38,233 nucleotides of DNA, taken from positions 1 to 38,233 of the IMG/VR virus record IMGVR_UViG_3300045999_007490. The stretch is one strand, 5' to 3'. The notes under the pieces were generated by a model. It was not told the origin of the DNA. It did no database searches and saw only the letters and a list, made by a program, of their open reading frames with translations. The DNA is from a virus. Position numbers and translations under genes: made by a program. Positions 4,741-36,360 of the stretch are shown here, one piece after another. Every line of letters starts with the position of its first letter. Position 1 is the first letter of the stretch.

Positions 4741-4748
4741 TATACACC
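4741..4748 (-). promoter_or_regulatory. Putative late promoter box GGTGTATA for the tail tube gene
   Basis: On the minus strand GGTGTATA reads into AATAAC, so it also contains TATAAATA, the T4 late promoter sequence. Forty nucleotides separate it from the ATG at 4700. A second weaker copy, GGTGTATG, lies inside the upstream gene at 4788-4795. Recurrence of the octamer at similar distances elsewhere supports it. Confidence 0.7.
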
Positions 4749-4756
4749 TATTGCTT

Positions 4757-5734
4757 TTAATCTGATATAATTTCAGTAGTAATTCTACATACACCAATAA
4801 ATAATTCTGGATGGATGATATTAATATCAAATAAATTAACGCTCTTTAACCAACATTTTCTCCATTTATATTGGCTAATAATATCTGGATACATTAATGC
4901 ATCTTCTATAAGATCTCCATGATAATTTAATGGAAATTTTTCTTCTTCAGATAATTTATTAGTATCAAATAACCAAATATTAGAATCTTGCTGTAATCTT
5001 AATATATCTAATATTTTATTTCTATCATTTTTATTTTCGGCTAATATATAAAATTCAATATCTTGTTCAATTATTAAATTATTATTTCCAAGTTCATGAG
5101 GTCTAGAACGAGATCTGGCAATTGGCTCAATTATGATACAGGGAAGTTGTATTCTGTGATTGCCTCCTATTGACCAATCTCCTGATTCTAATTTTTGAAT
5201 ATCTTTATTGCTAGTATCAAAAGAGGACATTTGTATAATATTTGTCCATGGACTATCTGACCCCCTATAAACCTGAACAAATCTATATGAATGGTCTACT
5301 TCGACAACTGAATCTGTATCAATAGCGCTATCAAAAACGATTCTGCCCATGGGATAATCAATATGGTATTCTAATCCGTCAGGGAATGGGCCCTCGGCGG
5401 AGACAAAAGTATTATCTATATAAATACCACTAACTAATATGGGTTCATGATCAAAACATTCTACTCCACTTTCCCAAACCCAGTCTTTTCTTATTGCTTG
5501 CCACACTTGACCACGATCATAGGACGGATCATCAACCAGAATCATGGACGCTGGAGAATTATTTGTTGGATTATAAATCTTATACTGATCTCTATTAGCA
5601 TCAAACCACGCACCAATATTCAAAAAAGACCAATCAAAAAACATCTTAAAATTAGATTCTAAAACATTTAATAATAGATCTTCGGATATTGTTTCTATAC
5701 CTTTAAATTTTTGATTAAAATTGCATATACTCAT
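4757..5734 (-). CDS. Virion structural protein of the neck/tail module
   Basis: A 325-residue protein of mixed alpha/beta character, not assigned to a named family. Visible landmarks are FFDWSFLNIGAWFDANRDQY (residues 32-51), a beta-rich stretch with YHIDYPMGRIVFDSAIDTD (residues about 124-142) and a C-terminal segment IIHPELFIGVCRITTEIISD. It overlaps the preceding gene by 4 nt (ATGA) and is followed by the tail tube gene with its own promoter box. Lying between tail completion and tube genes, it is likely a tail terminator or neck component. That role is inferred. Confidence 0.65.
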   Translation of the reverse strand: MSICNFNQKFKGIETISEDLLLNVLESNFKMFFDWSFLNIGAWFDANRDQYKIYNPTNNSPASMILVDDPSYDRGQVWQAIRKDWVWESGVECFDHEPILVSGIYIDNTFVSAEGPFPDGLEYHIDYPMGRIVFDSAIDTDSVVEVDHSYRFVQVYRGSDSPWTNIIQMSSFDTSNKDIQKLESGDWSIGGNHRIQLPCIIIEPIARSRSRPHELGNNNLIIEQDIEFYILAENKNDRNKILDILRLQQDSNIWLFDTNKLSEEEKFPLNYHGDLIEDALMYPDIISQYKWRKCWLKSVNLFDINIIHPELFIGVCRITTEIISD

Positions 5735-6387
5735 TGTAAAGAATCCTCTAATAGCTTTGATATATCAGTTTGTGCGGCGTCTATGGCGCGAGTGATCCAG
5801 TTATTATATTGGGTACCACTAAACGCCCCTGGCACTTTCCAGCTTTTTTTAGAAGGTGTCATTAGAGCCAAACCCGAACGTGATCTTGGATTGGGTCCAA
5901 AAACAACCTCGTAGTTTTTAACTAGAGTTTTACTTCCCTCTAATAATAACCATTGAAGCCAAGGTAAAGAATATCCTCTCTCATTATCTATTACCTGAGC
6001 AAAATCAGTATATAAAACATCGGCAAAATCTACTCTTATCATACTAGCAGAAAATTTAGATTTTATTTGATTACTAGCTATTTGTGGATTTTGATACTCA
6101 ATAGCAATATTTTTTGACCATACATCTAACAAACCAGCTAGTTTAGACCCAGAATCAGCTATACCGAACTCTGCTTTAAGTTTACCTATTAAAATAGCAT
6201 CATATTCTGGAGCACTTTTAATAGCGCTATTAATAATAGGTGGAAGTTTACTTTTAATATTATTTATAGCTTTATTCATATACTTTCTAACATCAGGCAA
6301 TAAAGCTTTGAGAAGCCGCCTTTGTATTTCGTTATCGCTTTCGAGAATTTTTAAATTAATATTCAATTGATTTTTTTCCACATACAA
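5731..6387 (-). CDS. Tail completion / neck protein candidate (HK97 gp10-like by position)
   Basis: A 218-residue protein. The N-terminal half is helical (RRLLKALLPDVRKYMNKAIN); the C-terminal half has GYSLPWLQWLLLEGSKTLVK and YEVVFGPNPRSRSGLALM, the sort of arrangement seen in minor tail or head-tail completion proteins. The 25-nt overlap with the upstream gene and 4-nt overlap with the downstream one indicate coupled translation. A later Met start is possible but would cut the helical N-terminus. Role is inferred from gene order. Confidence 0.6.
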   Translation of the reverse strand: MYVEKNQLNINLKILESDNEIQRRLLKALLPDVRKYMNKAINNIKSKLPPIINSAIKSAPEYDAILIGKLKAEFGIADSGSKLAGLLDVWSKNIAIEYQNPQIASNQIKSKFSASMIRVDFADVLYTDFAQVIDNERGYSLPWLQWLLLEGSKTLVKNYEVVFGPNPRSRSGLALMTPSKKSWKVPGAFSGTQYNNWITRAIDAAQTDISKLLEDSLQ

Positions 6388-6872: not shown

Positions 6873-6884
6873 ATAGTATCTATC

Positions 6885-7415
6885 TTATGAGTAAAAATCA
6901 CCACTATTATTACCTCTAAAAGAACCTCGTAATAAATACCTTGGATCAAAATTATTACCAACAAACGGGCTAAGTACAGCACTAACCGCTGTTGCATTAC
7001 CTATGTTGTGGTCAAGAGTTAACTGTTCATATAAAGCACATGGACCTTGATCTAATATAGTTTTGTATCCAGCTAGATTACCACTAACGCTTAAATTAGC
7101 TGACCCCAAAGCTGTCCTAATACCTTCTAATGCGGCTTTAGTCCTGAAAGTACTTTGATCCAATATACATGCCGCTTTAAGAGCTATAAATCCTACAAAA
7201 TCAGTATCTCTAGAATTGGGCGCACTAGGATCAGGAGTAATATTTTGATTAATAATATCAACTGTATAGGATGCAGACAAATTTACTTCGGATAATACAT
7301 ACTGAGCCGCTACTGTGGCTAACTGTATTATTCTACTATCGCTATAAGTTGGCTCGCAATCCATATCATTAATGAGCGTTCTTACAATAATTGGAATTTC
7401 TATTTGCCAGTACAT
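6885..7415 (-). CDS. Head-tail connector / neck protein candidate
   Basis: A 176-residue protein that begins MYWQIEIPIIVRTLINDMD, with helices DSRIIQLATVAAQYVLSEVN and DFVGFIALKAACILDQSTF. A helical bundle of this size with several short helices is typical of gp6-type adaptor proteins that dock on the portal. The C-terminal NNFDPRYLLRGSFRGNNSG may be a flexible arm. It is the first gene of a unit: a GGTGTATT box is 40 nt upstream and an AAAGGG ribosome site precedes the ATG. Gene order (neck genes, then tube, then tape measure) supports the role. Confidence 0.6.
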   Translation of the reverse strand: MYWQIEIPIIVRTLINDMDCEPTYSDSRIIQLATVAAQYVLSEVNLSASYTVDIINQNITPDPSAPNSRDTDFVGFIALKAACILDQSTFRTKAALEGIRTALGSANLSVSGNLAGYKTILDQGPCALYEQLTLDHNIGNATAVSAVLSPFVGNNFDPRYLLRGSFRGNNSGDFYS

Positions 7416-7455
7416 AATTTGGCCCTTTTAGTATACTAAATAAGTAATACTATTT

Positions 7456-7463
7456 AATACACC
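7456..7463 (-). promoter_or_regulatory. Putative late promoter box GGTGTATT for the neck/tail unit
   Basis: The octamer is 40 nt upstream of the ATG at 7415. It matches the GGTGTATA family at seven of eight positions. Between it and the start codon lies a perfect 14-bp palindrome TTTAGTATACTAAA (7427-7440), which would fall in the leader RNA. Confidence 0.65.
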
Positions 7464-7477
7464 ATTCATATTTTAGT

Positions 7478-10178: not shown

Positions 10179-10819
10179 AAATAAACCCTTGTATGATTGG
10201 AAACCGTTGCTGTTCCATTATTGGTAATAGTTAATCCACTCTTTCTATCGATAAGATCCCTAACTAAAGGAGCATAGATAGTTAAATTTTGTGGTCGTAT
10301 AAGAGATGGACTCATTCCTCGTGCTAGTGATAAAATCTCGTCGGCTGTTAAGGCAGCGTTCCAGACTCCAACCTCAGCTAAAGAGCCACTAAAATAATTA
10401 GTAAAAGCTGATGCTGCGCGGGTCACTCCTTGAAATAATCTATCTTCTCCAGTACCACTAGAATTAGTAGTATTAGTACCTGGACTACCACCATTAATAT
10501 AAACAGTACGACTAGTCGTGCTAGCAAAAACACCACAAGCATGAGTCCAAGTATTAGCAGAATACCCCGTGGTAGTATCAGCAGCTCCTGTGGCGGTTCC
10601 AACTGATAGAATACGAATAGGATCACCAGCAACGGCTCCTTGTGCATTTAAACGTATACCCTGTCCTCCTGTGGTGTTATCACAAATATTTAATAATCCT
10701 TGATTGGTTGTAGTATTAGAAGTTATAAACCAACAAGCCATTGTTATTGGTAAATCAGCAAATAGACTGCCAGTTGTAGTACTAAAATATTGAGTTGAAC
10801 CATTGAAAGAGTATGCCAT
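10175..10819 (-). CDS. LamG/concanavalin A-like lectin-fold protein
   Basis: A 214-residue protein with the laminin-G/ConA-like jelly-roll pattern: MAYSFNGSTQYFSTTTG at the start, PITMACWFITSNTTTNQGLL, YSANTWTHACGVFASTTSRT followed by VYINGG, and SGSLAEVGVWNAALTADEIL near residue 160. This order (FDG strand, SAWFK-like strand, W-HxAGVF strand, VYxNG turn, GxIDEVxIWNRALS) is characteristic of LamG_3 domains. The start shares TAATG with the fibre stop, so it is coupled to the fibre gene. It probably decorates the fibre tip or binds polysaccharide on the host surface. C-terminal residues 180-214 are a short beta tail. Confidence 0.85.
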   Translation of the reverse strand: MAYSFNGSTQYFSTTTGSLFADLPITMACWFITSNTTTNQGLLNICDNTTGGQGIRLNAQGAVAGDPIRILSVGTATGAADTTTGYSANTWTHACGVFASTTSRTVYINGGSPGTNTTNSSGTGEDRLFQGVTRAASAFTNYFSGSLAEVGVWNAALTADEILSLARGMSPSLIRPQNLTIYAPLVRDLIDRKSGLTITNNGTATVSNHTRVYL

Positions 10820-13800
10820 TATAGTACACTCCTAACTTCCACAGCAATAAGTTCAGCATCTCCAGTCATAGTATCATTAGTAGTATCACTAACATCTCTA
10901 TAAATTTTAATTCTAAAGAAATCACCAGCGACTAACGAGTCTATGGTTGTGCATGTTATGGTCGTTGTTGTTGGTATTCCGGAAGTACCATTAGTTGAAG
11001 AATGGGCTTCTGTTGCGGTGTCAAACGAATCGGAATCTTCATCAGTATTCATTCTTTCAAATTGTACGCCCCAACGACAATTTCCGGTGGTAGCACTAGT
11101 TGCCATCCAATGAATTCGTATTGAAAATCCTGATGATAAATTAGCATTGTCTGGTATAACGCCAACAAAAACAGCGCTTTCCTGTGTTGTGTCATCGAAA
11201 TCCAATACAGCAATACTATTTCTAGTATCTAGTGTTGCAAATGCTGATGCTGGTGGTTGATTATCTAACGCTGTAAATAATGATAAAGTTTTTATTTTTA
11301 ATGATGTTGACGCACCCGATACACCTTCGGTTAGGTCTAAATAGAATCCACGAGCACTACCACCTTGTTCAAACAATCGTAGTTTATTTTGATAAGCATC
11401 AATAGTGACTCCGCCAGATAATGTTCCATTTGGTGGTTTCGCCAATTGTATTTCTCCGCCCTCATCACCAGCAGCATAAGTGGATACCAAGTAAGGCGAA
11501 CTTAAATTAGTTCCATCAAAAGTTAAATCAGCTTCAGCATTAATACCGCTTGATGTTCCATCGCTAGTTAGTACTCTATTATCAACAGGATTACTTATAG
11601 TTATAGCATCGCCTTGTATGCCTTGTGTTCCTTGTAATCCTTCAAAACCCTGGATACCTTGAATACCATCTAGTCCTTGAATACCTTGAGCTGCTAGTAA
11701 TTGCCAATAACTAGTATTAGATGGATCCCAATTAGAAAAACCACTTTGAATAGCAACATAACTTGAACCATTATATGAAACGCTATCATTTTCATAGTAT
11801 GTTGTCATACTATTATATTCACCAGTCCAATTTATTCCACCAGCTATGCCTTGAACGCCTTGCTCTCCTTGTATACCCTGTGTTCCCTGCATACTAGCAT
11901 CAGAACCTTGTATACCCTGAGTTCCTTGTATAGCTTCTCCTTGAATACCTTGAACAGTTTGAACTACGAATACTGCCCAATAACTGCCATTACTTGGATC
12001 AAAACCGGAAAACCCATTTTGTATAGCTGCGTATGCGAATGAGCCATATGCTACTATATCATTAAGGTAATATGTAGTCCAACTATTATATTCTCCTCTA
12101 AAGTTTAGCGTTGGGATTGGTCCTTGAATACCGTCTAATCCTTGAATACCTTGAACACCTTGTTCTCCTTGTATACCCTGCACTCCCTGTTCGCCCTGTA
12201 TACCTTGAGTTCCCTGCATATAGGCGTCAGAGCCTTGTATCCCTTGAGTTCCTTGTATAGCTTCGCCTTGAATACCTTGTATGGTTTGACTTACAAATAA
12301 AGCCCAATAACTAGTATTGGTCGGATCAAAAGCAGAAAATCCGTTTTGTATGGCCGCGTATGCAGAAGTTCCGTAGGCAACTATATCGTTTAAATAGTAT
12401 GTTGTAAAACCATTATATTCGCCTCTAAAATTAAGTGTTGGAATTGGACCTTGTATTCCGTCAAAACCCTGTATACCTTGAACACCTTGCTCTCCTTGGA
12501 TTCCTTGAATACCTTGCTCGCCTTGGATTCCTTGTGTTCCTTGCATGCTAGCATCGGAGCCCGCTATGCCTTGAATTCCAAGTTCTCCTTGGATACCCTG
12601 TACGCCTTGTTCTCCTTGTATACCCTGTAAGCCTTGAGTCCCTTGATTGCCAGTGAATCCCTGAACGCCTTGTGTGCCTTGTTGACCGACCAAGCCCTGT
12701 AATCCTTGAATACCCTGGATTCCTTGAGTACCTTGTGTTCCCTGATTGCCAATTAAGCCTTGTACACCTTGGATTCCTTGTACGCCCTGAGAACCTTGGC
12801 TACCGATTGTTCCTTGATTTCCTTGAATTCCCTGAGTGCCTTGTAAACCATCTAGTCCTTGAGCGCCAGTATTTCCCTGTAACCCTTGAATTCCTTGAAG
12901 TCCCTGAATACCTTGAGTTCCTTGTGATCCCTGAGTGCCTTGTGACCCTTGAATACCATATACCAATGTATTTTCCCATAATTGAGCAGAAGCATTGTAT
13001 GCCAATACTTCTCCACCCTGCGCTCCTGATATTTGTACATTATGTAGTTCATCTAATTCATAACCATTTTGTACAGCAACATAAATTCTTCCAGAACTAG
13101 AATTCTTTTTAACAACTACTCCAATAAATACAAGATGTTCTGGTGCTGAAGTCTTAGTGGTTGTGTATGTTCCTGGAGTATTTCCTAACCATAAAATATC
13201 TCCAGCATTAAAAGCATTAGTATTAATTCCTCTAATCATACCTCTATTAATTACCCATCCTTCGGAACCAGCTAATATATTTTCAGCTACTATACCAAAT
13301 GTTTTAGATGATGTTGTATCAGACGCGTTAGATGCTCTTTTAACTGCTACTCTTTCTCCTTGAGCACCAAACATATAAACAACTTCACCCTTGTTAAGGG
13401 TCGTAGCTTCAGCATTATAGACTAATGAGGCCAAATCCTGACCAACAGATAATGTAACATTTCCACCCTTGAGATATTCTTGTAAAATTCCTTCTCCATC
13501 ATCCCAAAATATTGATCCAACACCACCAAAAGTTTCTGGAGTATTATCAAATTGAATATAATCAATATCTGAAATAGAAGTAATATCTTGAACAGATCCT
13601 GCTGGCATTGGTCCTTGGATTCCTTGAAGCCCTTGAGGGCCTTGGATACCTTGAATACCTTGTGTTCCTTGATCGCCTTGAATACCTTGTATACCCTGAT
13701 CTCCTTGGATGCCTTGAATTCCTTGAGTTCCTTGCTCGCCCTGTACTCCTTGTTCACCCTGTATTCCTTGAGTTCCTTGAATGCCTTGCATTCCATCTGA

Positions 13801-17259: not shown

Positions 17260-17657
17260 TAGCACTCCAGTGTAGTATTAGCTTGACTAAATCTTTTAAC
17301 AATTGATACTGTGCCATATAAAAGTCTAGTTGTAAATTTACCACCACCAGTGTACAAATCGGACGATGAACTAAGTTCGAGATCATATTTAGCCGTATTA
17401 AATGCAAAATTATTAGTAGTGCTTGCTGGTAGTTGAAAAATTAATTTACCATTAATAGCATCAATAGTGAATTTATATTGAGAATAATCCAGATTTTCAG
17501 TGGTAAAAATGCTAGTATCTCCATTATTAGTTTTCCACATTAATCTAGCACACCAACCAGTTAAATCTACTGGGTCGTTATTAGCGTCTTTGTATACTAG
17601 TGACAACTGAAAAGAAACGCCTTGCTCAATATTAAAATTATATTTGCTAGCTGGCAT
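17259..17657 (-). CDS. Small beta-rich tail or baseplate protein, fibre-base candidate
   Basis: A 132-residue protein beginning MPASKYNFNIEQGVSFQLSL, then PVDLTGWCARLMWKTNNGD. This FxxxQGxxF...DLTGxxAR pattern is common in small phage tail proteins encoded just before fibres. The C-terminal part, NTAKYDLELSS to RLLYGTVSIVKRF, is shared with the two upstream neighbours at 18308 and 18989, so the three appear related. The promoter-like box GGTGTATA is 38 nt upstream. It probably links the fibre to the tail or baseplate. Role is inferred. Confidence 0.65.
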   Translation of the reverse strand: MPASKYNFNIEQGVSFQLSLVYKDANNDPVDLTGWCARLMWKTNNGDTSIFTTENLDYSQYKFTIDAINGKLIFQLPASTTNNFAFNTAKYDLELSSSSDLYTGGGKFTTRLLYGTVSIVKRFSQANTTLEC

Positions 17658-17695: not shown

Positions 17696-17703
17696 TATAC
17701 ACC
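17696..17703 (-). promoter_or_regulatory. Putative late promoter box GGTGTATA for the fibre unit
   Basis: The octamer overlaps no coding sequence. It lies 38 nt upstream of the ATG at 17657, matching the spacing of the other copies. It would drive the fibre gene and the downstream lectin and accessory genes. Confidence 0.65.
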
Positions 17704-18988: not shown

Positions 18989-19573
18989 TTAAGAATTAGG
19001 ATAATCTGTTGATTTGCCAGCATATCTACTTAATATGCTAATGTTGCCATATATGGGACGAATAATTGAACCATCATCTAATCTAATCATAAGATCATAC
19101 TTTGCGCTGTCAAACGGAAATCCATAAGCATCGAATCTGGCTCCGTAAGAGGCTCCAAGAGGATGTTTTGATTGTGTTAGATTTACTGAATATGGTGTTG
19201 TACCAAGTTCTGTAAAATTGAATTCGATCCTAGAACCATCATTATCATTTGTTGTTAGATCTACATCATATAAGGATGGAATAGATGAATCTAAATGATA
19301 GTTAATAATATAGGTTTGACCTATAACAAATCTATTTGGTCCGCCTACACGAGTACCACCATAAGCGGCTGTAAATTCTAGACTAAATAAAACATCAACT
19401 ATATCCGCTGTAGTTGGAACATATAAACTATTAGGAGAAATTAGAGCATTTTCTATTTCATCTGTTGTTAAATCAAAAGCTATTGTGGTTTGTGCTCCTC
19501 TAATAACTGTGAAATTTTTTTGGGCATCTTCACCATATACATTATTAATATTGATCGTATTATTTATGATCAT
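18989..19573 (-). CDS. Beta-rich virion protein, first gene after the capsid terminator
   Basis: A 194-residue protein with LEFTAAYGGTRVGGPNRFVI, PYSVNLTQSKHPLGASYGAR and DAYGFPFDSAKYDLMIRLDD followed by PIYGNISI. These blocks repeat in the protein at 18308-18976, and the last part also in the one at 17259-17657. The ATG at 19573 is preceded by a GGTGTATA box 39 nt upstream and a second copy further up, both downstream of the capsid-gene terminator. It therefore opens the fibre operon. Likely a structural protein of the tail tip; family unknown. Confidence 0.65.
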   Translation of the reverse strand: MIINNTININNVYGEDAQKNFTVIRGAQTTIAFDLTTDEIENALISPNSLYVPTTADIVDVLFSLEFTAAYGGTRVGGPNRFVIGQTYIINYHLDSSIPSLYDVDLTTNDNDGSRIEFNFTELGTTPYSVNLTQSKHPLGASYGARFDAYGFPFDSAKYDLMIRLDDGSIIRPIYGNISILSRYAGKSTDYPNS

Positions 19574-19612: not shown

Positions 19613-19651
19613 TATACACCATAGTAAAAAAGATTGTTGAAACTATACACA
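19613..19651 (-). promoter_or_regulatory. Tandem putative late promoter boxes GGTGTATA and TGTGTATA
   Basis: GGTGTATA occupies 19613-19620, 39 nt upstream of the ATG at 19573. TGTGTATA occupies 19644-19651 and begins in the T-tract of the capsid-gene terminator. The two are 31 bp apart. This arrangement restarts transcription straight after termination. Confidence 0.65.
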
Positions 19652-19674
19652 AAAAGCCAGTCTTTCGACTGGCT
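19651..19674 (-). terminator. Intrinsic terminator of the capsid operon
   Basis: On the minus strand AGCCAGTC pairs with GACTGGCT (8 bp, perfect) around a GAAA tetraloop, followed by TTTTTG. This is a textbook rho-independent terminator about 34 nt after the capsid-protein stop codon. Confidence 0.9.
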
Positions 19675-19707
19675 CTCTGCGTATTAATTATTAATATTAC
19701 TAGATTC

Positions 19708-20712: not shown

Positions 20713-20726
20713 ATTTTTCTCCCTTA

Positions 20727-22750: not shown

Positions 22751-24943
22751 TTATGAACTATACACCAATTGATAAACATAAGATTTAGTAAACTTATTTT
22801 CATCGGCGGTTAGTGGCCTATTTAATTCGGCCATAATATTTTTCGTAAATTTTTTGTATTTACCATATTTAGCATTTATATCAATACTATTTAAAGTATT
22901 GAGTTTTGACAAAACTACTTCTTCGGTAACATTGGTCATCGGCTCTATAGAAAAAAAGATTTTAGTTTTGATACTTTCAACCTCGTCATATTCTACGCTA
23001 GATAAACTGCGCATATTTTTCTTATTATAAAATTCTAGTAAGGTAGGATTTATGATTTCCGAAATCTTTTCTTGAGTATCTATAGTCCATAGATTTAAAG
23101 AAGCGCCGGTTTGTGGACTAAATGTTTTGGTTTTTCTTTGATTTGAGTCTTTGCTATTTCTTGGTCTTCCCTGTTGCGGTTGTCCCGGTAGGCTATCAGG
23201 ATTGGTGTTCGTAGAAGGAGAACCAGGAATTGCTTTTGGTGGAGTAAATTGTGTTTTAATCTCAACGGCGTTCATTTCTCCTCGCTTTTTATTTCCAAGT
23301 TCTAGTCCAACTTGACTAGGTGTTGCTAAACCAAGTTGTAATGCCATCTTCTTCATAGAGTTTTCAAAATTAGCATCAAAGAATGGACCAGCTTTTTGAA
23401 CCATACGACTTGAATCTCTGTCTCTACTTTCTCTATTGAGTCTATTCTTTTCAATTTCTGGATCAAAACCAAATACTCTTTGTAGAAGTTCATCACTAAC
23501 AATATTTCTATCGGCTAGTTGGATCAATAAAGCTTTTTCTGCTTCTTCATTACTTAAGTCCATTCTGTCGAACTCTATTTTTGCTGGAAATCTAAAGCCC
23601 ATGGCTTTTTGTACCATAGCAATTTCTTGTTTCCAAAATGACATTAATACCTTACGACCATATTGTAGTCTTTGTGTAAGGGTTTTTAGACTTATAAAGT
23701 TATTAGTTGTTCCAGCAGCGCCGTACGTTCCGGTCAAAGTTGGAGGAATACCCAGACCAGCATAAACACTATTTAAATGTGGAGTATATTTACCTTCGCC
23801 AAGGAATTGATGAACACTAGTTTTGCTTTCTAGTAGTTCAATATCAGGACCCCATACAAGATCCATTGTGCCACCGCCAACATTATTTTGTAGAATATTA
23901 CTCAGCTTACTAGCTGCTGCTGGAGTAGGAGCAATCTTGTGCTCTAGACTACCAAGTTTAAAAATACGGATATTACTAATTGCGCCGTCAAGAGCTGCTA
24001 AGTCAGCAAGTTTAAGTTTTTCTATAACATTAATATCATCCATAATACTATAGATCATCGGATATGCCCAAGTTTTCCAATCGTCTTTCTTGTAATGAAA
24101 AACTAGAGTTTTACTAGGATCTAATAGATATGGTTTTTTAGTTTTTGCTGCTTCAATAATTGCTGCTGGTAGTTGATCAACTATTTTTCTTTCAGCATCG
24201 TTCTTGGGACTGTTGATAATTTTTCTAAGAGTTCCAGGAATAACAATACTATAAGTTTTATCTCCAACGAAAGAAGATAATGAGCCACCAATAACATCCA
24301 CACAAACAGGATCTATGAAAGTATATTTCCACGGAATTTCTCTTTTTTCGACCTGTGTCTCAACTTGATTAACTATCAAATCTGGACTAGCAACACTTTT
24401 ATAAAGACTGTCTGCAACCTTTACGCTAATTTTAGCTGTTTGTCTATTTACAACAATGTTTCCAACACGATAAAGATTGTTTAAAAATCTTTCGCTTCGT
24501 TCTTCTCCTTTTACTTTCTCAAACCAATTACGATAGAATTTTTCTATTCTTTTATTCGTATGAACTAATCTTATTCCTTGACAAGCAAAGTCGCCCATAA
24601 GATCTATAACGTTTTTGACCAAACCAACTCTGTTATAAATATCGTCAGCCTTGACGAAAATACCCTTGATATGAGAAGGTACGCTTTCTTCTGGCCTAAA
24701 ATAGTCATAATCACTACGAGTTAATCCGGGACGACCACTCGTTGGGCCATCTAAATTTCTAAAGTCTGTGCGATATCTGCCATTATTGGCCGTTGATTTA
24801 TTGACTAGGCCAAATTCTTCCAATCCTTTGCTAGCTTCTTGTAAGGCTTGTCTTTTGTCTTCTAGATTGGAATCGTCCCAAGTAACATACGCATTTTCTG
24901 GTGCGACAGGTTCAGCATTTGGAATATTTGGATTGGTAGACAT
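22751..24943 (-). CDS. Portal protein
   Basis: A 730-residue protein from the ATG at 24943 (MSTNPNIPNAEPVAPENA). This start is preferred over a TTG at 24967 because a promoter-like box lies 39 nt upstream of it. Portal rings form the DNA entry vertex and the docking site for terminase and neck. Visible features are GLVKNVIDLMGDFACQGIRL, RFLNNLYRVGNIVVNRQTAK, a mid-protein SVYAGLGIPPTLTGTYGAAG followed by FISLKTLTQRLQYGRKVLMS and the long helical stretch through LLIQLADRNIVSDELLQRVF, all typical of phage portals. The C-terminal 120 residues are an added domain. It follows the large terminase gene and precedes the protease. Confidence 0.85.
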   Translation of the reverse strand: MSTNPNIPNAEPVAPENAYVTWDDSNLEDKRQALQEASKGLEEFGLVNKSTANNGRYRTDFRNLDGPTSGRPGLTRSDYDYFRPEESVPSHIKGIFVKADDIYNRVGLVKNVIDLMGDFACQGIRLVHTNKRIEKFYRNWFEKVKGEERSERFLNNLYRVGNIVVNRQTAKISVKVADSLYKSVASPDLIVNQVETQVEKREIPWKYTFIDPVCVDVIGGSLSSFVGDKTYSIVIPGTLRKIINSPKNDAERKIVDQLPAAIIEAAKTKKPYLLDPSKTLVFHYKKDDWKTWAYPMIYSIMDDINVIEKLKLADLAALDGAISNIRIFKLGSLEHKIAPTPAAASKLSNILQNNVGGGTMDLVWGPDIELLESKTSVHQFLGEGKYTPHLNSVYAGLGIPPTLTGTYGAAGTTNNFISLKTLTQRLQYGRKVLMSFWKQEIAMVQKAMGFRFPAKIEFDRMDLSNEEAEKALLIQLADRNIVSDELLQRVFGFDPEIEKNRLNRESRDRDSSRMVQKAGPFFDANFENSMKKMALQLGLATPSQVGLELGNKKRGEMNAVEIKTQFTPPKAIPGSPSTNTNPDSLPGQPQQGRPRNSKDSNQRKTKTFSPQTGASLNLWTIDTQEKISEIINPTLLEFYNKKNMRSLSSVEYDEVESIKTKIFFSIEPMTNVTEEVVLSKLNTLNSIDINAKYGKYKKFTKNIMAELNRPLTADENKFTKSYVYQLVYSS
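22759..22766 (-). promoter_or_regulatory. Putative late promoter box GGTGTATA for the protease/capsid unit
   Basis: The octamer lies in the last codons of the portal gene, 29 nt upstream of the protease ATG at 22729. It encodes Val-Tyr near the portal C-terminus, so coding and promoter signals overlap. Confidence 0.6.
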
Positions 24944-24982
24944 AATAGTATTATATTGGAATTGCAATTAAACTATAAGAAA

Positions 24983-24990
24983 TATACACT
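24983..24990 (-). promoter_or_regulatory. Putative late promoter box AGTGTATA for the portal gene
   Basis: Seven of eight bases match GGTGTATA. It lies just after the large-terminase stop codon, 39 nt upstream of the portal ATG at 24943, the same spacing as other copies. Confidence 0.6.
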
Positions 24991-24991: not shown

Positions 24992-27028
24992 TTATCTATA
25001 AATTCCTTTATATATATTATCGTTTGCTGCGCCAGTAAACCAAGTTGGCCCTTTATAAAGTTCTCCGTCTTTAGCTTTTCTATCTGTGCGTAAATTTGAT
25101 CCAATTACTTCAAACGTGACTGGCTCTAAAGATCTACTAAGTTGTCTAGCTAACATATTTGCTATTACTAAAGCACTATATCGGTCTTTTCTTAATTTAC
25201 CCTTTTTACCATTTGGAAGTTTAATATCCGGAGTATCCCATCTATCTCTGCCACCAACGCCGGTGCTAGTTTGGGTCATAACAATTGTTGTTAATTCATT
25301 TTTTAGTTCTTCTATTTCCAATATACAATCACTTTGATTATCATATAAATTTTCAAAGTCTGCGTCCATAATATTTTTATTTTCTTGGTCTAGTGCAAGA
25401 GCCAAGCTGATCTGATCGAATCTAGGGAATAATAAAACTTTATCCTCTAAATCTTTTCTCAGACCATGATTGGCTTGACTAGTCCAATCAGCACGAGCAA
25501 ACTGTACCAATTCAAGTATATGTAATCCAGACTGGCTATCTGTTTCTTTTGATTTATCTTGATCTATAATTGGCCATATAAGATGTTCGCCCTCTTCTAA
25601 TTTAGAAGGATCGTGTAGTGCTTCTTCAATCGCCACACCACCACCCTGAGCGTCCATCCCAATCCTGTATGGTGGAAATGTTTTCATGAGATTGCGTATT
25701 TTTCTAGCGCAAAATCCATAGAAGTCATATTCATTAACTAAACCAGTCTTTTGTCTATCTTTAAAATTACTTCTGTTTGTGGTCCAACAATATACTATGC
25801 GAGAATGATCAGGATGAAGTTCCAAAACTACAATACTAAAATTGTCTTTTTCGGATGCCGGATCGATACCGTAAACATATTGAAAGCTAGGATTGCCTGT
25901 TGTTATAGCGTCAAAGATAATATTTTTGTTATTCAATAAAATTGGCTTGGTATCACTAGTGACACAACTTTCTATTAAACTTCTCCTAAAGAAACCGTCA
26001 CTATCTTCTGTAAAACAAGCCGCATATTCCATGTTATAAATCCCAGTATGAATCGTAGCTTTTGCTCTACTAACTTGTTTATCGTCCATGAATCCTTTTG
26101 GAATAAGTTCATATGGTATTCGAATAATAGAATAATCTGCCCAATTGAAATTGTCTGGAACCTCACCATTAAAAATTTCTTGTAGTTTATACTTGTCTCC
26201 TTTACTGTCTATAATACTTCTGTATCTTTTCCAGTAACTAGAGAAGTGTTTAAATGCATAATCTGCTGTACCACTAATAATAGCCTGATTACTCTTTTTA
26301 ATTTGAACCGCTTCTAGTTCATCATTCCATAATCCAGCCTCAAGCAAAGCTTTCTTTTTAGCTTCTTCTTTGACGTTCTGTATAGGATTAGCGCTAACAG
26401 CAGCGAAGCCAGAAACTACCGTTTCATAAATATCCGGACTAATTGATGCGAACTCGTCAGCGATGATAATGTGTGCTCTAAGACCTCTAATTTTACTACC
26501 GTCGCCCATAGGCACAGCAATCGTCCAACTTTCTCCTAGTCTAATCGTGCATCTATCAACATCTCGACGCGGACCATCATTGTTGCCTGTAAAGATACTT
26601 CGTAATATTGGACTATTGCGCCATAGTGTTTCCATATATTCAAAGATGATTTTACTTTGTCTAAAAGCGGCACCCACGACTACGATTTTTGTGCCTGGAA
26701 CCAACATGCATCTAAGAACACAATAAAGAGCCATCAAAAAACTTTTACCGAAACCACGACTAGCAATAAACATAGGAAATGGACGAATCCAAAACTCTTG
26801 AAGTATAGCTATTTGTATAGGATGCAATTCTACTCCAAACAATAACTTACAGGTACTACCAAAATATTTTGGGTTTCTCAATAGTCTTAATAAGTGTAGA
26901 TCTGGATTTTCTATATCATCTTTATTGCGTCCAATCATTTGGTTCTTATCAACAATGATCTTTGATAAGTCGCCTAGACCTAGCCACGCATCGTCAAATA
27001 TTTGTTTATTTTTGATTATATCGCTCAT
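24992..27028 (-). CDS. terL: Terminase large subunit
   Basis: A 678-residue DNA packaging motor. The ATPase domain has Walker A FIASRGFGKSF (87-97) and Walker B HIIIADEFA (186-194, Asp191 and catalytic Glu192), with the adenine-binding-type HPIQIAILQEFW at 69-80. The RNase H-like nuclease domain has three acidic residues in VYGIDPASEKDNFS (Asp389), RIGMDAQGGG (Asp459) and KDRYSALVIAN (Asp615), as in T4 gp17-type terminases. It translocates DNA into the prohead through the portal. The start overlaps the ERCC4 gene by 23 nt. Length is slightly above the usual 450-620 residues. No frameshift or intron is visible. Confidence 0.95.
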   Translation of the reverse strand: MSDIIKNKQIFDDAWLGLGDLSKIIVDKNQMIGRNKDDIENPDLHLLRLLRNPKYFGSTCKLLFGVELHPIQIAILQEFWIRPFPMFIASRGFGKSFLMALYCVLRCMLVPGTKIVVVGAAFRQSKIIFEYMETLWRNSPILRSIFTGNNDGPRRDVDRCTIRLGESWTIAVPMGDGSKIRGLRAHIIIADEFASISPDIYETVVSGFAAVSANPIQNVKEEAKKKALLEAGLWNDELEAVQIKKSNQAIISGTADYAFKHFSSYWKRYRSIIDSKGDKYKLQEIFNGEVPDNFNWADYSIIRIPYELIPKGFMDDKQVSRAKATIHTGIYNMEYAACFTEDSDGFFRRSLIESCVTSDTKPILLNNKNIIFDAITTGNPSFQYVYGIDPASEKDNFSIVVLELHPDHSRIVYCWTTNRSNFKDRQKTGLVNEYDFYGFCARKIRNLMKTFPPYRIGMDAQGGGVAIEEALHDPSKLEEGEHLIWPIIDQDKSKETDSQSGLHILELVQFARADWTSQANHGLRKDLEDKVLLFPRFDQISLALALDQENKNIMDADFENLYDNQSDCILEIEELKNELTTIVMTQTSTGVGGRDRWDTPDIKLPNGKKGKLRKDRYSALVIANMLARQLSRSLEPVTFEVIGSNLRTDRKAKDGELYKGPTWFTGAANDNIYKGIYR

Positions 27029-27470
27029 AAATTCTTTTCATTAAACTGACGCTGAATCGTTCCGCATTACTAGGATCATCACAAAATACTATTTGTATAT
27101 TATATTCTAATTGAATTTCTATTAATCTTTTAATAATATAGTTTCCACTAATTCGCAGTTTGTCCCATAACTTTTTAGGAATATCACTACCGACAGGAAA
27201 GTTATATACTTCGTCGAGACTAAATTCAAAAACCATATAAGGGTGTTTGATCTTACTTAGTCTTTCTAATACATCCTTGAATCTGCTTTCGCTCAAATTA
27301 GTAGCTAATTCACTAACGCTCTTTTTACGCTCTATAGCTATTATATTTTCGAATCCTTCTATGCTATAATCACCGGTATCTAGTTTATGTTTAGCAGTAT
27401 TATGGTGTCCGAATTCCCATGGGATCTGTTCTCTGGTGTCGATGATAATAGTGAATGGGTCTTTATTCAT
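27006..27470 (-). CDS. ERCC4-type nuclease
   Basis: A 154-residue protein with the XPF/Mus81/ERCC4 nuclease core: IIIDTREQIPWEF (8-20), TGDYSIEGF (32-40) and AIERKKSVSEL (45-55), giving the family GD...ERK catalytic motif (Gly33-Asp34, Glu47-Arg48-Lys49). ERCC4 nucleases cut branched or flap DNA. It consists of the nuclease domain alone, without the helix-hairpin-helix part of the cellular proteins. Its ATG overlaps the HNH stop as ATGA, and its end overlaps the large terminase start. In this location it may resolve replication or recombination branches before packaging. The pairing with terminase is notable. Confidence 0.9.
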   Translation of the reverse strand: MNKDPFTIIIDTREQIPWEFGHHNTAKHKLDTGDYSIEGFENIIAIERKKSVSELATNLSESRFKDVLERLSKIKHPYMVFEFSLDEVYNFPVGSDIPKKLWDKLRISGNYIIKRLIEIQLEYNIQIVFCDDPSNAERFSVSLMKRIYERYNQK

Positions 27471-27721
27471 TTTAATAGCCTGCTAAAAAATTCTCTATAA
27501 CTATCTTCATTGTCTTTTATTAATTCGTGATGAAATCTGCATAGTGTGATACCATTTTGTGGGTGAAATCTTAAACCCGGAAAATCTGCCCATCGATAAA
27601 TATGATGTGCTTGTAATTTCTTTTTGTTTTTACATCCTGGCCACCTACAGCTATGATTATCTCGCGCATAAATTTTTTTTCTCCATTCCTTGTATTGAGG
27701 ATCTTGGTAGTTTCTACTCAT
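27467..27721 (-). CDS. HNH endonuclease
   Basis: An 84-residue protein with a complete HNH motif: zinc cysteines Cys25 and Cys30 (CRWPGC), LQAHHIYRW with His39-His40, Asn56 in PQNGITLC, and Cys61 with HH at 64-65. HNH enzymes of this small free-standing type next to terminase genes are known in cos phages such as HK97, where they assist genome-end cleavage. Here it overlaps the small terminase candidate by 8 nt and the ERCC4 nuclease by 4 nt, so it is part of the packaging operon and not an obvious homing element. It may still be a mobile nuclease. Confidence 0.9.
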   Translation of the reverse strand: MSRNYQDPQYKEWRKKIYARDNHSCRWPGCKNKKKLQAHHIYRWADFPGLRFHPQNGITLCRFHHELIKDNEDSYREFFSRLLK

Positions 27722-28523
27722 CCGCGATAACGCTTTCGTTATTTAAGAATGGTTTGTCTACTTTTCCATCTTGATATTCATGATACTCATAGAAATTTTT
27801 TCTGTATTGTTCTGTTGCCATGCTAAGAATTTCCATTTCCCTACCTTCTTTTTCTCTTATTTCTTCGTCTTCTAGCATGCGTATCAACCCTGTCCAACTG
27901 CTTTTTCCGTCTTCAATTCTTTTAATGCGTTGTTCTCTTGTGGCTTTGAGATCTTTACTAATCTTTTGTTGTTCGCTTAATAATTTAGTATATTCATTTG
28001 TGTAACTAGCTATGCTATTGCGAGCAAAACTAAGTTGTGTTTCCAGATTGGCTAATCTGGGAATATCTCGTTGATCTTCTGGTTTGTCGTATTCAGCATC
28101 AACCAGCCTTTGAAGCTTTTCTGTTTCGCTAATATGTCGTTTACGTTCTTTCATGCTTCGATTGATTAAAATATCGATAGTAATAAATTGTTTGATTTGT
28201 AATTCTTCGGCAGGAAGCACATCCTCGCGGAACTGTTTAATTAAACCTATCCATGTATCCTCAAAGTATTGGAGTTCGCCACTATCAGCATCGAACTGTC
28301 TTAGTATTTCGCTCCAAAATGTTTTACTGTGTAGTTTCCTTTTAAGCACATCATTTTCGCCCTTTTCCTCCAATGCGTATAGTTGATTTTCATCAACATA
28401 ACGATTTATGGGATCAATATTTCTATTTAAACTATTAGCTATTTGTTCTATAGTTAATATATTTATATTATCTCTGATAAATTTTTCTTCATCTAAGCTT
28501 AATTGTCCACGTTTTTTAGCCAT
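27714..28523 (-). CDS. Terminase small subunit candidate
   Basis: A 269-residue DNA-binding-type protein. The N-terminal 45 residues form a helix-turn-helix (SLDEEKFIRDNINILTIEQI, then ANSLNRNIDPINRYV). The middle is a long helical region (RLANLETQLSFARNSIASYT, EQQKISKDLKATREQRIKRI), which would drive oligomerisation, and the C-terminus is acidic. This order (HTH, coiled coil, tail) and the position directly upstream of HNH and large terminase fit a small terminase. The FIRDNI motif recurs in the small plus-strand regulator at 29345. Its start lies inside the end of the sigma-like gene (8-nt overlap). Confidence 0.7.
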   Translation of the reverse strand: MAKKRGQLSLDEEKFIRDNINILTIEQIANSLNRNIDPINRYVDENQLYALEEKGENDVLKRKLHSKTFWSEILRQFDADSGELQYFEDTWIGLIKQFREDVLPAEELQIKQFITIDILINRSMKERKRHISETEKLQRLVDAEYDKPEDQRDIPRLANLETQLSFARNSIASYTNEYTKLLSEQQKISKDLKATREQRIKRIEDGKSSWTGLIRMLEDEEIREKEGREMEILSMATEQYRKNFYEYHEYQDGKVDKPFLNNESVIADE

Positions 28524-29148
28524 GATATTCTTTAAGTATTTGTTTAATATGTTCGACCAGAGAGTCTTTTTCCGCTTTGCTTACTTTGGCTCCGGATTTA
28601 ATGCGTAAATATATCATTCTATTATTATCTATTAAATTATTTTCAATAATATCTATGATCTCTTTATTACTAATAAAATTGAAGAAATCATCGTCATCCG
28701 AAGTAAATACAGATCCATAGTTTTTAATTTCATCAATAGTTGTTAGATGCATCAGATTTTTCTTGTTATCATTGCGTTGTGACCAAGTGTAATACAAATC
28801 ACAATCATTTTTATCACTATATTTAGTACACAATGAATTTTTACTATCAAATAGTGGGCACGAATAGCACGGCTTATCTGGTCTTCTATAGTTATCTCTT
28901 TTGTAATTAAAAAGCCTGTTGCGAACGTGAGTCCACAAAAAGTTTTCTAATGGTCTTTTATAGTCATAGTTTTTAAGACCCTCGATAGCAAATATACTAA
29001 TCTGCTGTTTCATATCCTCTATATCATGATAACCAAATTTAAATTTATATGCTAATTTTTTAGATATATTATCAATAACAGTTAATAGTTCATTTTCATC
29101 GATCTTGTGTTTTTTCGATATTGTTTTCTTCTTCTTCTTTTTTTTCAT
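28516..29148 (-). CDS. RNA polymerase sigma-like factor (late transcription factor candidate)
   Basis: A 210-residue protein. Residues about 30-90 resemble sigma region 2: KFGYHDIEDMKQQISIFAIE, then NYDYKRPLENFLWTHVRNRL with FNYKRDNY, the helix that in sigma factors holds RNA polymerase and the -10 element. It is followed by a possible zinc site (CYSCP, then Cys107 and Cys116). The C-terminal 70 residues are helical and could form a region-4 remnant. This architecture is like T4 gp55, the late sigma factor. It lies ahead of the packaging genes and behind a sigma-70-like promoter. I infer that it reads the GGTGTATA boxes. The ATG at 29148 gives a Lys-rich N-terminus. Confidence 0.75.
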   Translation of the reverse strand: MKKKKKKKTISKKHKIDENELLTVIDNISKKLAYKFKFGYHDIEDMKQQISIFAIEGLKNYDYKRPLENFLWTHVRNRLFNYKRDNYRRPDKPCYSCPLFDSKNSLCTKYSDKNDCDLYYTWSQRNDNKKNLMHLTTIDEIKNYGSVFTSDDDDFFNFISNKEIIDIIENNLIDNNRMIYLRIKSGAKVSKAEKDSLVEHIKQILKEYHG

Positions 29149-29263
29149 TTAATAATTCTGAGATGGTTTTAGTTTGAGATGATTCTAAGTCGCGCGAAAT
29201 ATCTACGTTTTCGCTAGCTACTACTTTTAGTGTGCTATTCGCAATATTTTTCTTTTTTTTCAT
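29096..29263 (-). CDS. Small basic/acidic protein at the head of the sigma operon
   Basis: A 55-residue protein from the ATG at 29263, which has AAGGAG 7-8 nt upstream. It begins MKKKKNIANSTLKVVASENV and ends with a Glu-rich tail (LNEKKEEEENNIEKTQDR). Longer readings that start upstream lack a ribosome site and would run over the promoter. It overlaps the sigma-like gene by 53 nt in another frame, through a run of A residues. No family is recognised. It may serve mainly to couple translation of the sigma-like gene. Confidence 0.6.
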   Translation of the reverse strand: MKKKKNIANSTLKVVASENVDISRDLESSQTKTISELLNEKKEEEENNIEKTQDR

Positions 29264-29282: not shown

Positions 29283-29310
29283 TTAGCCAACACATAGTAT
29301 ATATTATACT
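29283..29310 (+). promoter_or_regulatory. Possible plus-strand promoter for the small HTH gene
   Basis: TTAGCC (29283-29288), a 16-nt spacer and TATACT (29305-29310). The -10 is good, the -35 is poor. The 16-nt spacer equals that of the right-end promoters. It faces away from the sigma-operon promoter and overlaps it. Confidence 0.45.
29296..29310. promoter_or_regulatory. 15-bp palindrome, operator candidate between divergent promoters
   Basis: AGTATA-TAT-TATACT is a perfect palindrome that covers the -10 boxes of both divergent promoters. A repressor bound here would block both directions. The adjacent HTH gene is the natural candidate, by inference. Confidence 0.55.
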
Positions 29311-29329
29311 TAGTACACAGGTTTGTCAA
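29303..29329 (-). promoter_or_regulatory. Sigma-70-like promoter of the sigma/terminase operon
   Basis: On the minus strand a perfect TTGACA (29329-29324), a 15-nt spacer and a perfect TATAAT (29308-29303). The spacer is two bases short of the optimum, though TAATAT fits a 17-nt spacer. It lies about 40 nt before the ATG at 29263. Confidence 0.75.
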
Positions 29330-32216: not shown

Positions 32217-32245
32217 ATTTATTTCCTTATTTTGGTTTAACTATT

Positions 32246-32253
32246 ATTACACC
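32246..32253 (-). promoter_or_regulatory. Possible late promoter box GGTGTAAT
   Basis: A six-base match to GGTGTA plus AT, covering the stop region of the upstream gene and 29 nt before the ATG at 32216. It is a weaker copy of the series and less certain. Confidence 0.4.
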
Positions 32254-34665: not shown

Positions 34666-34666
34666 A

Positions 34667-35977
34667 TTATTTTAGTTTCCATGTATTGGTTGTGGGGTCG
34701 AACAGGAACGATTGAGATTCTGTTTCTGATCCGCTGCCGGATCCACAATTGTCCTCGCATGTTTGTTGGTCATCGTAACAAGTAACTATCCTAGGATCAC
34801 AACACCATTCATCAACCTCATAACAATAGCCTCCACTTGGTAAACATATCCATTTCGTTCCCCAATCTTGACCTGTTATTTCATTATAATATTCTAGAGC
34901 TTCGGCTTCTGTTTCAAAAAATAGTCCGTCTGAATTTTCAATTTCTTCGTCTGGTGGAATATATTTTTTCATTGTTACCTGACCATTTAAACAATATACA
35001 GCATATTGTTCAGCATCGATACAAGTATCTAAATCATCATATGTGGTACCGAACATACAAGCACACAAGCTCTCAATAGGTTCACAGTTTCCTTTACGTT
35101 TAACATACACGGTGCTTCTTTGTGGTCCTTGTTCTATTCTAAAATTTTTACCATTAATTAATAAATTATAAAATTTTCTGGCTGCTGCTTCTGATCTAAA
35201 AAATCTGGCGCATACATCTTTATCTTTATATTTAATGCCAAATTTATCTTGTGTTAATTCTTCATGATCTGTTTGTTCAATATATGTGTTGCTCTCAATC
35301 CTCTCAAAAGGCTCACCACTATCTACAATAGTATATGTACAATATACTATCCACTTATTTTTTTTATGACACTTATTACAATTTGGAAGTAATTCTGTAG
35401 TGTCTGTTGAGAAAGGAAAAAGATCCAGCACAAAATTACTATCGGTATTAGGAATTATGTAGTCTTTCTCAAACCACAAACATTTGTCGCATCTATAAAA
35501 ATTCTCGTAACTGTCTACTGTTTTATATATACAATATGTAGAAAATAAAGCTTCTAAACTTGATGGTCTAACAATTGTTGGTAAATTTTTTTTAAAATAA
35601 ATATCGTTATCAAACATTTCTTTTTTAATAAATTCAATAGTATCTGTTATTTCAAAAGAGTATTTTACTCCACCACCCATCGTTGGCTCACTACCTGGCG
35701 GCCAAACTTTAATTGATCTACCCTGAATGGGTATAAAAACCTCTGTGGCTGTGGTGAAAATCATATTAGCAATATCATTTTTAATATCTTCGATTAGTTG
35801 TTTTGCTTCTTTTAGCGGCATTTGCTGCACATAACTATTTGGGATTCCGATTCCGTTACCATCAAATGTCATATTTTTGGGTATAAAAGTATAATCATTT
35901 GTTAGTTCATGAAAATTGATAACATAAACTATTGGATTATCCAGAGTGTCTGGTCTGTATGGGGCAAATACGGCCAT
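34667..35977 (-). CDS. Cysteine-rich repeat protein ending in FxFD...TW
   Basis: A 436-residue protein. A possible zinc site CDKC (163-166) with CNKC (200-203) precedes two tandem units. Unit A (about 228-324) and unit B (about 325-411) share ARFFRSEAAARKFYN / LFFETEAEALEYYN, then C-x6-C and YDDLDTC / YDDQQTC. It ends CGSGSGSETESQSFLFDPTT followed by NTWKLK, a linker and motif found in other proteins here (CGSGS also in the 783-residue protein). Disulphides or metal sites would stabilise the units. It shares TAATG with the previous gene. Function is unknown; likely an exposed virion part. Confidence 0.6.
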   Translation of the reverse strand: MAVFAPYRPDTLDNPIVYVINFHELTNDYTFIPKNMTFDGNGIGIPNSYVQQMPLKEAKQLIEDIKNDIANMIFTTATEVFIPIQGRSIKVWPPGSEPTMGGGVKYSFEITDTIEFIKKEMFDNDIYFKKNLPTIVRPSSLEALFSTYCIYKTVDSYENFYRCDKCLWFEKDYIIPNTDSNFVLDLFPFSTDTTELLPNCNKCHKKNKWIVYCTYTIVDSGEPFERIESNTYIEQTDHEELTQDKFGIKYKDKDVCARFFRSEAAARKFYNLLINGKNFRIEQGPQRSTVYVKRKGNCEPIESLCACMFGTTYDDLDTCIDAEQYAVYCLNGQVTMKKYIPPDEEIENSDGLFFETEAEALEYYNEITGQDWGTKWICLPSGGYCYEVDEWCCDPRIVTCYDDQQTCEDNCGSGSGSETESQSFLFDPTTNTWKLK

Positions 35978-36312
35978 TAGTTATTTATTCCTTTCCAGCT
36001 TTTAGCTAAATAAATACGTTCCGGATACAATTCGTAAGCATTAAATAGCGGATCCACAATAGTATCTTTATTATTTGAATAAAAATAATCTGAAGAATAA
36101 ATTAAACCATAATACAAATATCGATCACTTGATTCTAAGACTGGTTCTATGTTCTCTAATAGTACCAGTATATGATCGTTGTTTTGTTGAGTGGGGTTGG
36201 TGGGGTTATCGGCCTTGTTATTGTTTATAGAATAAGAGGCTATATTGGTATTCCAATCCTTGGTATTATAAAACGAGCGAGTTTCGGATGTGGATATATT
36301 GTATATGCTCAT
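35977..36312 (-). CDS. Hypothetical protein opening the minus-strand virion block
   Basis: A 111-residue protein from the ATG at 36312 (MSIYNISTSETRSFYNTKDW). A start at 36384 is possible but lacks a ribosome site, and the promoter-like box at 36353-36360 lies inside that extension. The 40-nt spacing to 36312 matches other promoter-gene pairs. It is Asn, Tyr and Ser rich, with DPLFNAYELYPERIYLAKSW near the end. It shares TAATG with the next gene. No family is recognised. Confidence 0.55.
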   Translation of the reverse strand: MSIYNISTSETRSFYNTKDWNTNIASYSINNNKADNPTNPTQQNNDHILVLLENIEPVLESSDRYLYYGLIYSSDYFYSNNKDTIVDPLFNAYELYPERIYLAKSWKGINN

Positions 36313-36352
36313 AATTTTATGATGAATCTTAGAAAGATAGCTACTAATGTAT

Positions 36353-36360
36353 CTTACACC
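36353..36360 (-). promoter_or_regulatory. Putative late promoter box GGTGTAAG
   Basis: Six of eight bases of the GGTGTATA consensus, 40 nt before the ATG at 36312. It would drive the 36-29.5 kb block leftward. Confidence 0.55.

Follow-up and report, generated by a model that had tools for sequence, protein, structure and literature searches.

The window analyzed here, a 38,233-nt stretch of an uncultured virus (IMG/VR record IMGVR_UViG_3300045999_007490), carries on its minus strand an octamer, GGTGTATA or a close variant, that recurs at similar distances ahead of several genes. This raises the question of whether the octamer serves as a promoter and, if so, which protein reads it. The original prediction had proposed a new class of late promoter; all eleven octamer coordinates behind this proposal were correct on reading back, and the start codons gave the stated distances of 38-40 and 29 nt.

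Octamer sites in the window

The candidate late promoter elements are all located on the minus strand. Exact copies of GGTGTATA at 4741..4748, 17696..17703, and 19613..19620 lie 40, 38, and 39 nt before the ATG of the genes at 3579-4700, 17259-17657, and 18989-19573, respectively, and the variant GGTGTATT at 7456..7463 lies 40 nt before the ATG of the 6885-7415 gene. Another exact copy (22759..22766) falls within the final codons of the portal gene (22751..24943, minus strand), 29 nt before the ATG of the 21194-22729 gene. Directly 3' of the stop codon of the terminase large subunit gene (24992..27028, minus strand), AGTGTATA at 24983..24990 lies 39 nt before portal ATG 24943, a spacing that holds with this start codon and not with the longer ORF that opens with TTG at 24967. 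Profile searches bore out the name of the portal (phrog_2739, E 1e-9), but the names tail tube, neck, and protease, also proposed earlier, found no such support. The same searches identified the terminase (phrog_2, E 1e-20) and matched the 17259-17657 gene to phrog_1084.

Ahead of the 18989-19573 gene, a second and weaker copy, TGTGTATA (19644..19651, minus strand), overlaps the tail of a predicted intrinsic terminator (19649..19680, minus strand). This terminator, which has a perfect stem, a GAAA loop, and a U run (-22.9 kcal/mol, z -7.9), lies 3' of the 19708-20730 gene and immediately ahead of the putative promoter pair. Two further minus-strand sites are less secure. The first, GGTGTAAT at 32246..32253, is a possible element 29 nt before ATG 32216 that we retain tentatively; the site is weak, coincides in part with the preceding gene's stop codon, and had a single relative in the comparison. 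The second, GGTGTAAG at 36353..36360, had been listed as a member of the series but is unsupported: unless 36312 is the translation start it falls within ORF 35977-36384, and zero relatives were available for it in the orthologue comparison. The copies GGTGTATA at 1784 and GGTGTATG at 4788 lie inside genes, as had been noted.

The exact octamer was found five times on the minus strand and zero times on the plus strand of the window, compared to 1.1 copies expected by chance, and 0 of 100 shuffles reached five. When one mismatch was allowed anywhere, the window count showed no excess (26 versus 31 expected), which suggests that the signal consists of the GTGTA core and its position and not of a loose octamer. 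The pattern [AGT]GTGTA[AT][AT] occurred 25-45 nt before the start in 7 of 33 window leaders, as opposed to an average of 0.2 (maximum 3 in 5000) at random minus-strand positions, so the claim that the spacing exceeds chance was upheld.

Conservation of the motif in related phages

The phages compared form a large and widespread group of environmental phages of 120-230 kb with no cultured member. No named phage relative was retrieved by DNA, portal, or sigma factor, and with the terminase, matches stood at only 24-26%. Across eight related genomes, GGTGTATW was found between genes 62 times in sense and once in antisense orientation, while 49 sense copies were located within genes. De novo motif discovery on upstream regions yielded two promoter-like classes, of which this motif was the stronger. 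Its consensus was tTGGTGTATAaT (10 bits, in about 29% of the intergenic leaders), and it carried no information at -35, in line with the absence of a -35 box in the original prediction. Among leaders with neither motif, nothing above about 6 bits emerged as a third promoter class.

Conservation was evident gene by gene. The motif preceded 27 of 27 orthologues of the 6885-7415 gene (median distance 41), 93 of 101 of the portal, 83 of 100 of the 21194-22729 ("protease") gene, 43 of 53 of the 17259-17657 gene, and 7 of 14 of the 3579-4700 gene. The terminase large subunit gene has no late motif upstream in the window, and only 1 of its 77 orthologues was preceded by one; for other, neighbouring genes the figure was 0-8%. 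The 18989-19573 gene had zero orthologues among the loci fetched for this count. At the 22759 site, the overlapped Val codon of the portal was GTG in 81 of 81 orthologues versus 6.7% generally, and the codon before it always ended in G. These alignments indicate that the motif at this site is under selection against codon bias.

Two promoter classes and their genes

Within the group genomes, genes downstream of the motif included those for portal, tail, baseplate, and endonuclease VII, and genes downstream of TTGACA/TATAAT included rIIA/B, polymerase, ligase, and SSB, a division that follows late and early gene functions. A perfect sigma70 promoter of the latter type (TTGACA-16-TATAAT; 36595..36622, plus strand) faces right in the window, at the start of a divergent early-type region. 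No multisubunit RNA polymerase was matched in 16 phage records, in a search whose control was matched; T7-type polymerase also had no match, but in that search the control had none either.

A candidate phage sigma factor

A gene at 28516..29148 (minus strand) encodes P0001, a putative phage sigma factor of 210 aa and our candidate reader of the motif. It matched Pfam Sigma70_r2 (E 4e-5) and, weakly, the phrog_1740 sigma profile (E 9e-4, residues 10-91). The protein comprises a region 2, invariant cysteines at positions 94/97/107/116, and a short, degenerate C-terminal domain. Sigma70_r2 was detected in 15 of 16 records, nine of them above the cut-off and the window protein just below it. A total of 58 homologues were retrieved and P0001 was present in 24 of 25 group records, the sole exception being a contig with the portal near its end. 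Related sigma factors were also found in two bacterial bins, whose affiliations, Flavobacteriales and Alphaproteobacteria, disagree as pointers to the host. The sigma gene had been missed in the original prediction.

In the sigma70 family, region 2 is responsible for core binding and -10 melting, and region 4 for -35 recognition. No profile hit to region 4 was obtained in P0001. Its C-terminal 73 residues form three helices that faintly resemble sigma domain 4 (3hug_C, Z 6.3); the fold matches that would suggest a region 4 in this segment were weak and tied with unrelated chains. The AlphaFold model was of middling confidence (pLDDT 73, pTM 0.43); one of its better matches in the fold search was 7d7c, a gp55 complex (Z 7.5, 108 residues, 5.8 A).

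A conserved acidic protein of 55 aa (29096..29263, minus strand) is encoded by a gene that overlaps the sigma gene and is predicted to be co-transcribed with it. This operon is preceded by a sigma70-type promoter, TTGACA ... TATAAT (29301..29329, minus strand), with TGTGTAC (29313-29319) in its spacer. Allowing at most one mismatch, the TTGACA promoter was found ahead of the sigma gene in 26 of 80 relatives and in none of the 80 on the reverse strand, and GTGTA lay inside the spacer in 52 of 82 relatives.

Proposed late transcription and alternative explanations

From these comparisons we infer promoter function, late timing, and P0001 rather than another factor as the reader: late promoters probably have GGTGTATA as their only core element, read by P0001 together with the host polymerase. 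Sites right after terminators and right after stop codons fit this reading; against it, P0001 resembles known sigma profiles only weakly, and gp55 and gp36 hardly at all by profile comparison. Host sigma70 would use the TTGACA/TATAAT promoters to express the early genes and the sigma operon, and P0001 would direct the host polymerase to GGTGTATA ahead of the portal, tail, baseplate, and endonuclease VII genes. Some 40 nt ahead of the start codon, the motif would occupy the place of the -10 box; RNA would start roughly 6-8 nt past it, so that leaders would be about 25-35 nt long. For a group of 120-230 kb phages, this would represent a complete early-to-late switch in which the promoter sequence, its position, and a candidate sigma are all specified, and the motif would make their late genes recognisable from sequence alone. 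A more elaborate arrangement seems rather unlikely: a region-2-only, cysteine-bearing sigma would read GGTGTATA, a second, region-4 sigma-like protein and/or the 55-aa acidic protein would dock on the polymerase in the place of T4 gp33, and the sigma would feed back on its own operon via the spacer GTGTA. Such a two-sigma late system, if true, would be new to phages.

That second sigma-like protein (195-220 aa, with region 4) might itself read the late promoters, alone or with P0001 as a split sigma. It matches Sigma70_r4 at E about 3e-13, its gene is located among the motif-driven genes, and 9 of 25 records have it, among them almost every one of the largest. However, use of a -35 element is what one would expect of a region-4 protein, and the motif has none; P0001 occurs in all records but one; and the 140-kb record G005, although it may be incomplete, has the motif without the second protein. 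We consider this explanation doubtful. Less probable still is an extended -10 box for the host main sigma, whose late specificity would come from a phage activator or from the loss of an early repression. The TGTATAAT part does resemble TG plus TATAAT, and TGTA also tends to precede the -10 in the early promoters of the group, but it is the G's of GGTG that carry the most information, the final -10-box positions are weak, and the motif was combined with TTGACA in just 4 of 224 promoters.

A fairly constant motif-to-start distance of about 40 nt would fit an element acting in RNA, for instance as a signal in the leader that affects translation or stability. Yet the distances vary between 18 and 57 nt, and some sites were found right after terminators, where nothing further upstream would transcribe them. 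For an activator site serving another promoter, no second promoter was seen upstream of the motif; we regard either role as very improbable. Finally, chance or codon bias could be suspected from the lack of excess of one-mismatch octamers in the window and from GGT GTA TAx being a natural codon string, as in the sense copies within genes, but chance is refuted by the 62:1 strand ratio between genes, the conservation among orthologues, and the constraint against codon bias, which leave this explanation a negligible probability.

Comparison with known phage promoters

A reading of GGTGTATA by P0001 and the host polymerase has precedents, and the claim of a new class must be qualified: the motif sequence and the lineage are new, but phage sigmas that read single-element late promoters are already known, namely T4 gp55 and phiEco32 gp36. 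A literature search for GGTGTATA with promoter returned nothing relevant. The present phages would add, after T4 and phiEco32, a further natural example of such promoters paired with a candidate region-2-only sigma, of use for learning how region 2 selects its letters.

T4 late promoters consist of TATAAATA and depend on gp55, gp33, and the gp45 clamp (PMC2988020, PMC1524935). The T4-type element lies at -13 to -6. Like them, the promoters proposed here have one element at the -10 position without a -35, and a candidate phage sigma in which only region 2 was recognised; rIIA/rIIB and endonuclease VII likewise occur in the relatives. Unlike in T4, the motif is GGTGTATA and not TATAAATA. The TATAAATA at 4741, taken earlier as a hint of the T4 late sequence, is GGTGTATA followed by AATA, a coincidence, and a T4-type link was rejected because TATAAATA shows no enrichment in the intergenic regions of the group. 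P0001 had no hit to phrog_234 of the gp55 family at E 0.1, aligned with gp55 at 23% probability over 45 columns in hhalign and, unlike gp55, showed no C-terminal clamp-binding motif. No credible phrog_223 and no PF02767 match to a gp45-type or beta-type clamp was obtained in 16 records, in searches that a diverged clamp may escape.

The gp36-dependent middle/late promoters of phiEco32 (Kuravirus) have the single-element consensus tAATGTAtA (PMC8948821). In this promoter type, transcription begins 6-8 nt downstream of the element. They share with the motif a TGTATA core, the lack of a -35, and early genes on sigma70, and gp36, as P0001 appears to be, is a small phage sigma without a usable region 4; it belongs to phrog_1740, the family weakly matched by P0001. 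On the other hand, GG stands here where phiEco32 has AA before TGTATA, and the phiEco32-type AATGTATA is not enriched in this phage group, which is different and has larger genomes. Unlike gp36, P0001 carries four invariant cysteines; the two have almost no alignable sequence in common and their profile comparison is weak. The late promoters of phage 7-11, read by gp47, are bipartite (GTAAtg-16-aCTA; PMC8948821) and gp47 has a region 4, unlike the system proposed here; gp47 is a phage sigma that acts on late genes with the host core polymerase, as P0001 would.

Genome fragment and relatives

The 38,233 bases form an entire IMG/VR virus record but a fragment of a larger phage, and the minus strand holds nearly all genes called in it. 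Gene calling relied on a simple home-made caller. Firm identifications were obtained for the large terminase (24992-27028, minus strand; phrog_2, E 1e-20) and the portal (22751-24943, minus; phrog_2739, E 1e-9). Equally firm were a collagen-repeat protein, an ERCC4 nuclease (27006-27470) and one HNH protein. The first of these, the 2148-aa product of 10819-17265 (minus), has collagen repeats in 22 stretches (E 1e-146), ends in a CBM5/12 carbohydrate-binding module and is predicted to be a long collagen-like fibre. Among 50,697 named phage records, the portal and the candidate sigma factor described below had no relative and the terminase had relatives at 24-26% only. Hundreds of IMG/VR contigs, several of 120-230 kb, carry relatives; seven of these records were fetched, in pieces, and counts over relatives were made after removal of identical sequences, otherwise without phylogenetic weighting. 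Contigs with the same sigma (48-52% identity) occur in a Flavobacteriales MAG (L273) and an Alphaproteobacteria MAG (L274), conflicting hosts that probably reflect binned phage contigs.

A putative late promoter motif

The original prediction described an octamer recurring before minus-strand genes as a new late promoter class. On re-reading the coordinates, every octamer and spacing listed was correct; two of the sites (36353 and 32246) are weak. The exact octamer occurs five times on the gene strand of the window versus none on the other, and its core lies 25-45 nt before the start in 7 of 33 leaders versus 0.2 expected; the relaxed octamer showed no excess in the window. Across eight genomes with 1145 usable genes, GGTGTAT was found 20-55 nt upstream of 67 genes, versus a median of 3 for the 140 permutations of its letters and 1 for the reverse complement. 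Intergenic GGTGTATW, drawn from just 14% of the sequence, was sense in 62 cases and antisense in one. GGTGTAT (54 versus 2 for the reverse complement) and CTTGACA (38 versus 5) were among the most over-represented pre-gene 7-mers, and an unanchored mixture model applied to 454 intergenic leaders recovered tTGGTGTATAaT (~10 bits) de novo in ~29% of them; CTTGACAA, in 28%, emerged as a class of its own. Apart from T's immediately 5' of the late motif, next to no information was present up to 30 nt upstream, so the motif has no -35 box, in keeping with the original remark that none is obvious. The median spacing between motif and start codon is 40 nt.

Conservation of the motif in relatives, a check proposed with the original prediction, held gene by gene. 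Orthologues retained it before 6885-7415 (27/27), portal (93/101), 21194-22729 (83/100), 17259-17657 (43/53) and 3579-4700 (7/14). Orthologues of motif-free window genes rarely or never had it: terminase (1/77), 19708-20730 (0/82), the sigma gene (0/82), 27714-28523 (0/81) and 20727-21191 (6/83). The reverse-complement control gave 0 or 1 for every gene. The site at 22759 overlaps the final portal codons (..Q-L-V-Y-S-S). Here the valine is GTG in all 81 distinct portal orthologues having Val-Tyr, versus 215 of 3220 portal valines overall (6.7%), and the preceding codon ends in G in every case, whether it encodes Leu, Met, Thr, Ser, Ala or Val; selection here is for G-GTG-TAT as DNA and not for the encoded protein. 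In many relatives (L023, L034 and L075, for example), portal leaders carry near-repeats of ATTACAATACCT between the late element and the ATG, ending in ATTATG, perhaps a translation signal.

Two promoter classes

For genes immediately 3' of GGTGTAT we found PHROG matches to portal, baseplate wedge, tail fibre, tail assembly, minor tail and virion structural proteins and to endonuclease VII, together with some HNH endonucleases; for genes behind TTGACA/TATAAT the matches were to rIIA, rIIB, DNA polymerase, DNA ligase and SSB. The two promoter types occurred together at just 4 of the 224 genes classified, and a search for a third motif found none. In the window, the putative promoter at 19613 comes immediately after a terminator predicted to be strong (-22.9 kcal/mol, z -7.9). 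Sigma70 promoters at 36595 (plus, 12/12 match) and 36894 (plus, 11/12) face right, so that a divergent early region probably begins in 36400-38233, where G+C is higher (0.43) and the plus strand has short ORFs. Many early leaders (G001, G004, G005, G007, G008 and others) have a spacer in which CCGATAA immediately follows CTTGACA, with CAAG or AAAG ~17 nt upstream and TGTAGAAT-like -10 boxes following, seemingly an unusual composite early promoter.

A candidate sigma factor

In 15 of 16 records, a Pfam search for sigma region 2 picked out a single protein. In the window this is the 210-aa product of 28516-29148 (minus; P0001), at E 4e-5, slightly under the curated cut-off; it also matches phrog_1740 (sigma; E 9e-4). 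In an alignment of 58 homologues, region 2 is nearly invariant (LAYKFKFGYH..DMKQQ..IFALEGL.NYD..RPLENFLWTHVRNRLFNYKR.NY), followed by invariant cysteines 94, 97, 107 and 116, perhaps a metal site. Searching with this alignment located the family in 24 of 25 records, the remaining one being a contig whose portal sits near its end. In fold comparison, the P0001 model (pLDDT 73, pTM 0.43) resembles domain 2 of numerous sigma factors as well as T4 gp55 bound in a promoter complex (7d7c, Z 7.5), although Z values of this size would be weak on their own. Profile search recognised no region 4 in P0001, consistent with a promoter that lacks a -35 box; the C-terminal 73 residues fold as three helices, whose resemblance to sigma domain 4 is weak and tied with that to unrelated chains.

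An additional 195-220-aa protein, with a region-2-like front half and a strong region 4 (E ~3e-13), is encoded in nine records, mostly the largest (loci include G001:10826-11473, plus; G003:40628-41290, plus; G004:146036-146695, minus; G007:152706-153287, minus; G008:109458-110042, plus). Its gene sits among motif-driven, late-type genes, and it could be the reader, a partner or a factor for promoters not yet recognised. That it reads the late motif, alone or together with P0001, seems improbable; P0001 is probably the reader.

T4 late promoters (TATAAATA) use gp55, the clamp gp45 and the coactivator gp33 (PMC2988020, PMC1524935), and phiEco32 middle/late promoters (tAATGTAtA) use gp36, without region 4, with the start 6-8 nt downstream (PMC8948821). 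Both share the working outline of the system proposed here. The suggested link to the T4 late sequence is not supported: neither the T4 nor the phiEco32 motif is enriched in this phage group. No T4-type or beta-type clamp was detected in 16 records. The late-motif system would work like both and belongs to neither; what is new is the variant, the kind of promoter system being already known from T4 and phiEco32.

At the head of the sigma operon lies a TTGACA-type promoter that is conserved (26/80 relatives have it with no more than one mismatch, versus 0/80 on the reverse strand), together with a conserved acidic 55-aa ORF (29096-29263, minus), immediately ahead of the sigma gene and overlapping it. 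Its product has no family match and is a candidate co-activator or anti-sigma. In the spacer of this sigma70 promoter (29301-29329, minus), close behind TTGACA, lies a GTGTA, present in 52 of 82 relatives, for which dual use or autoregulation is possible.
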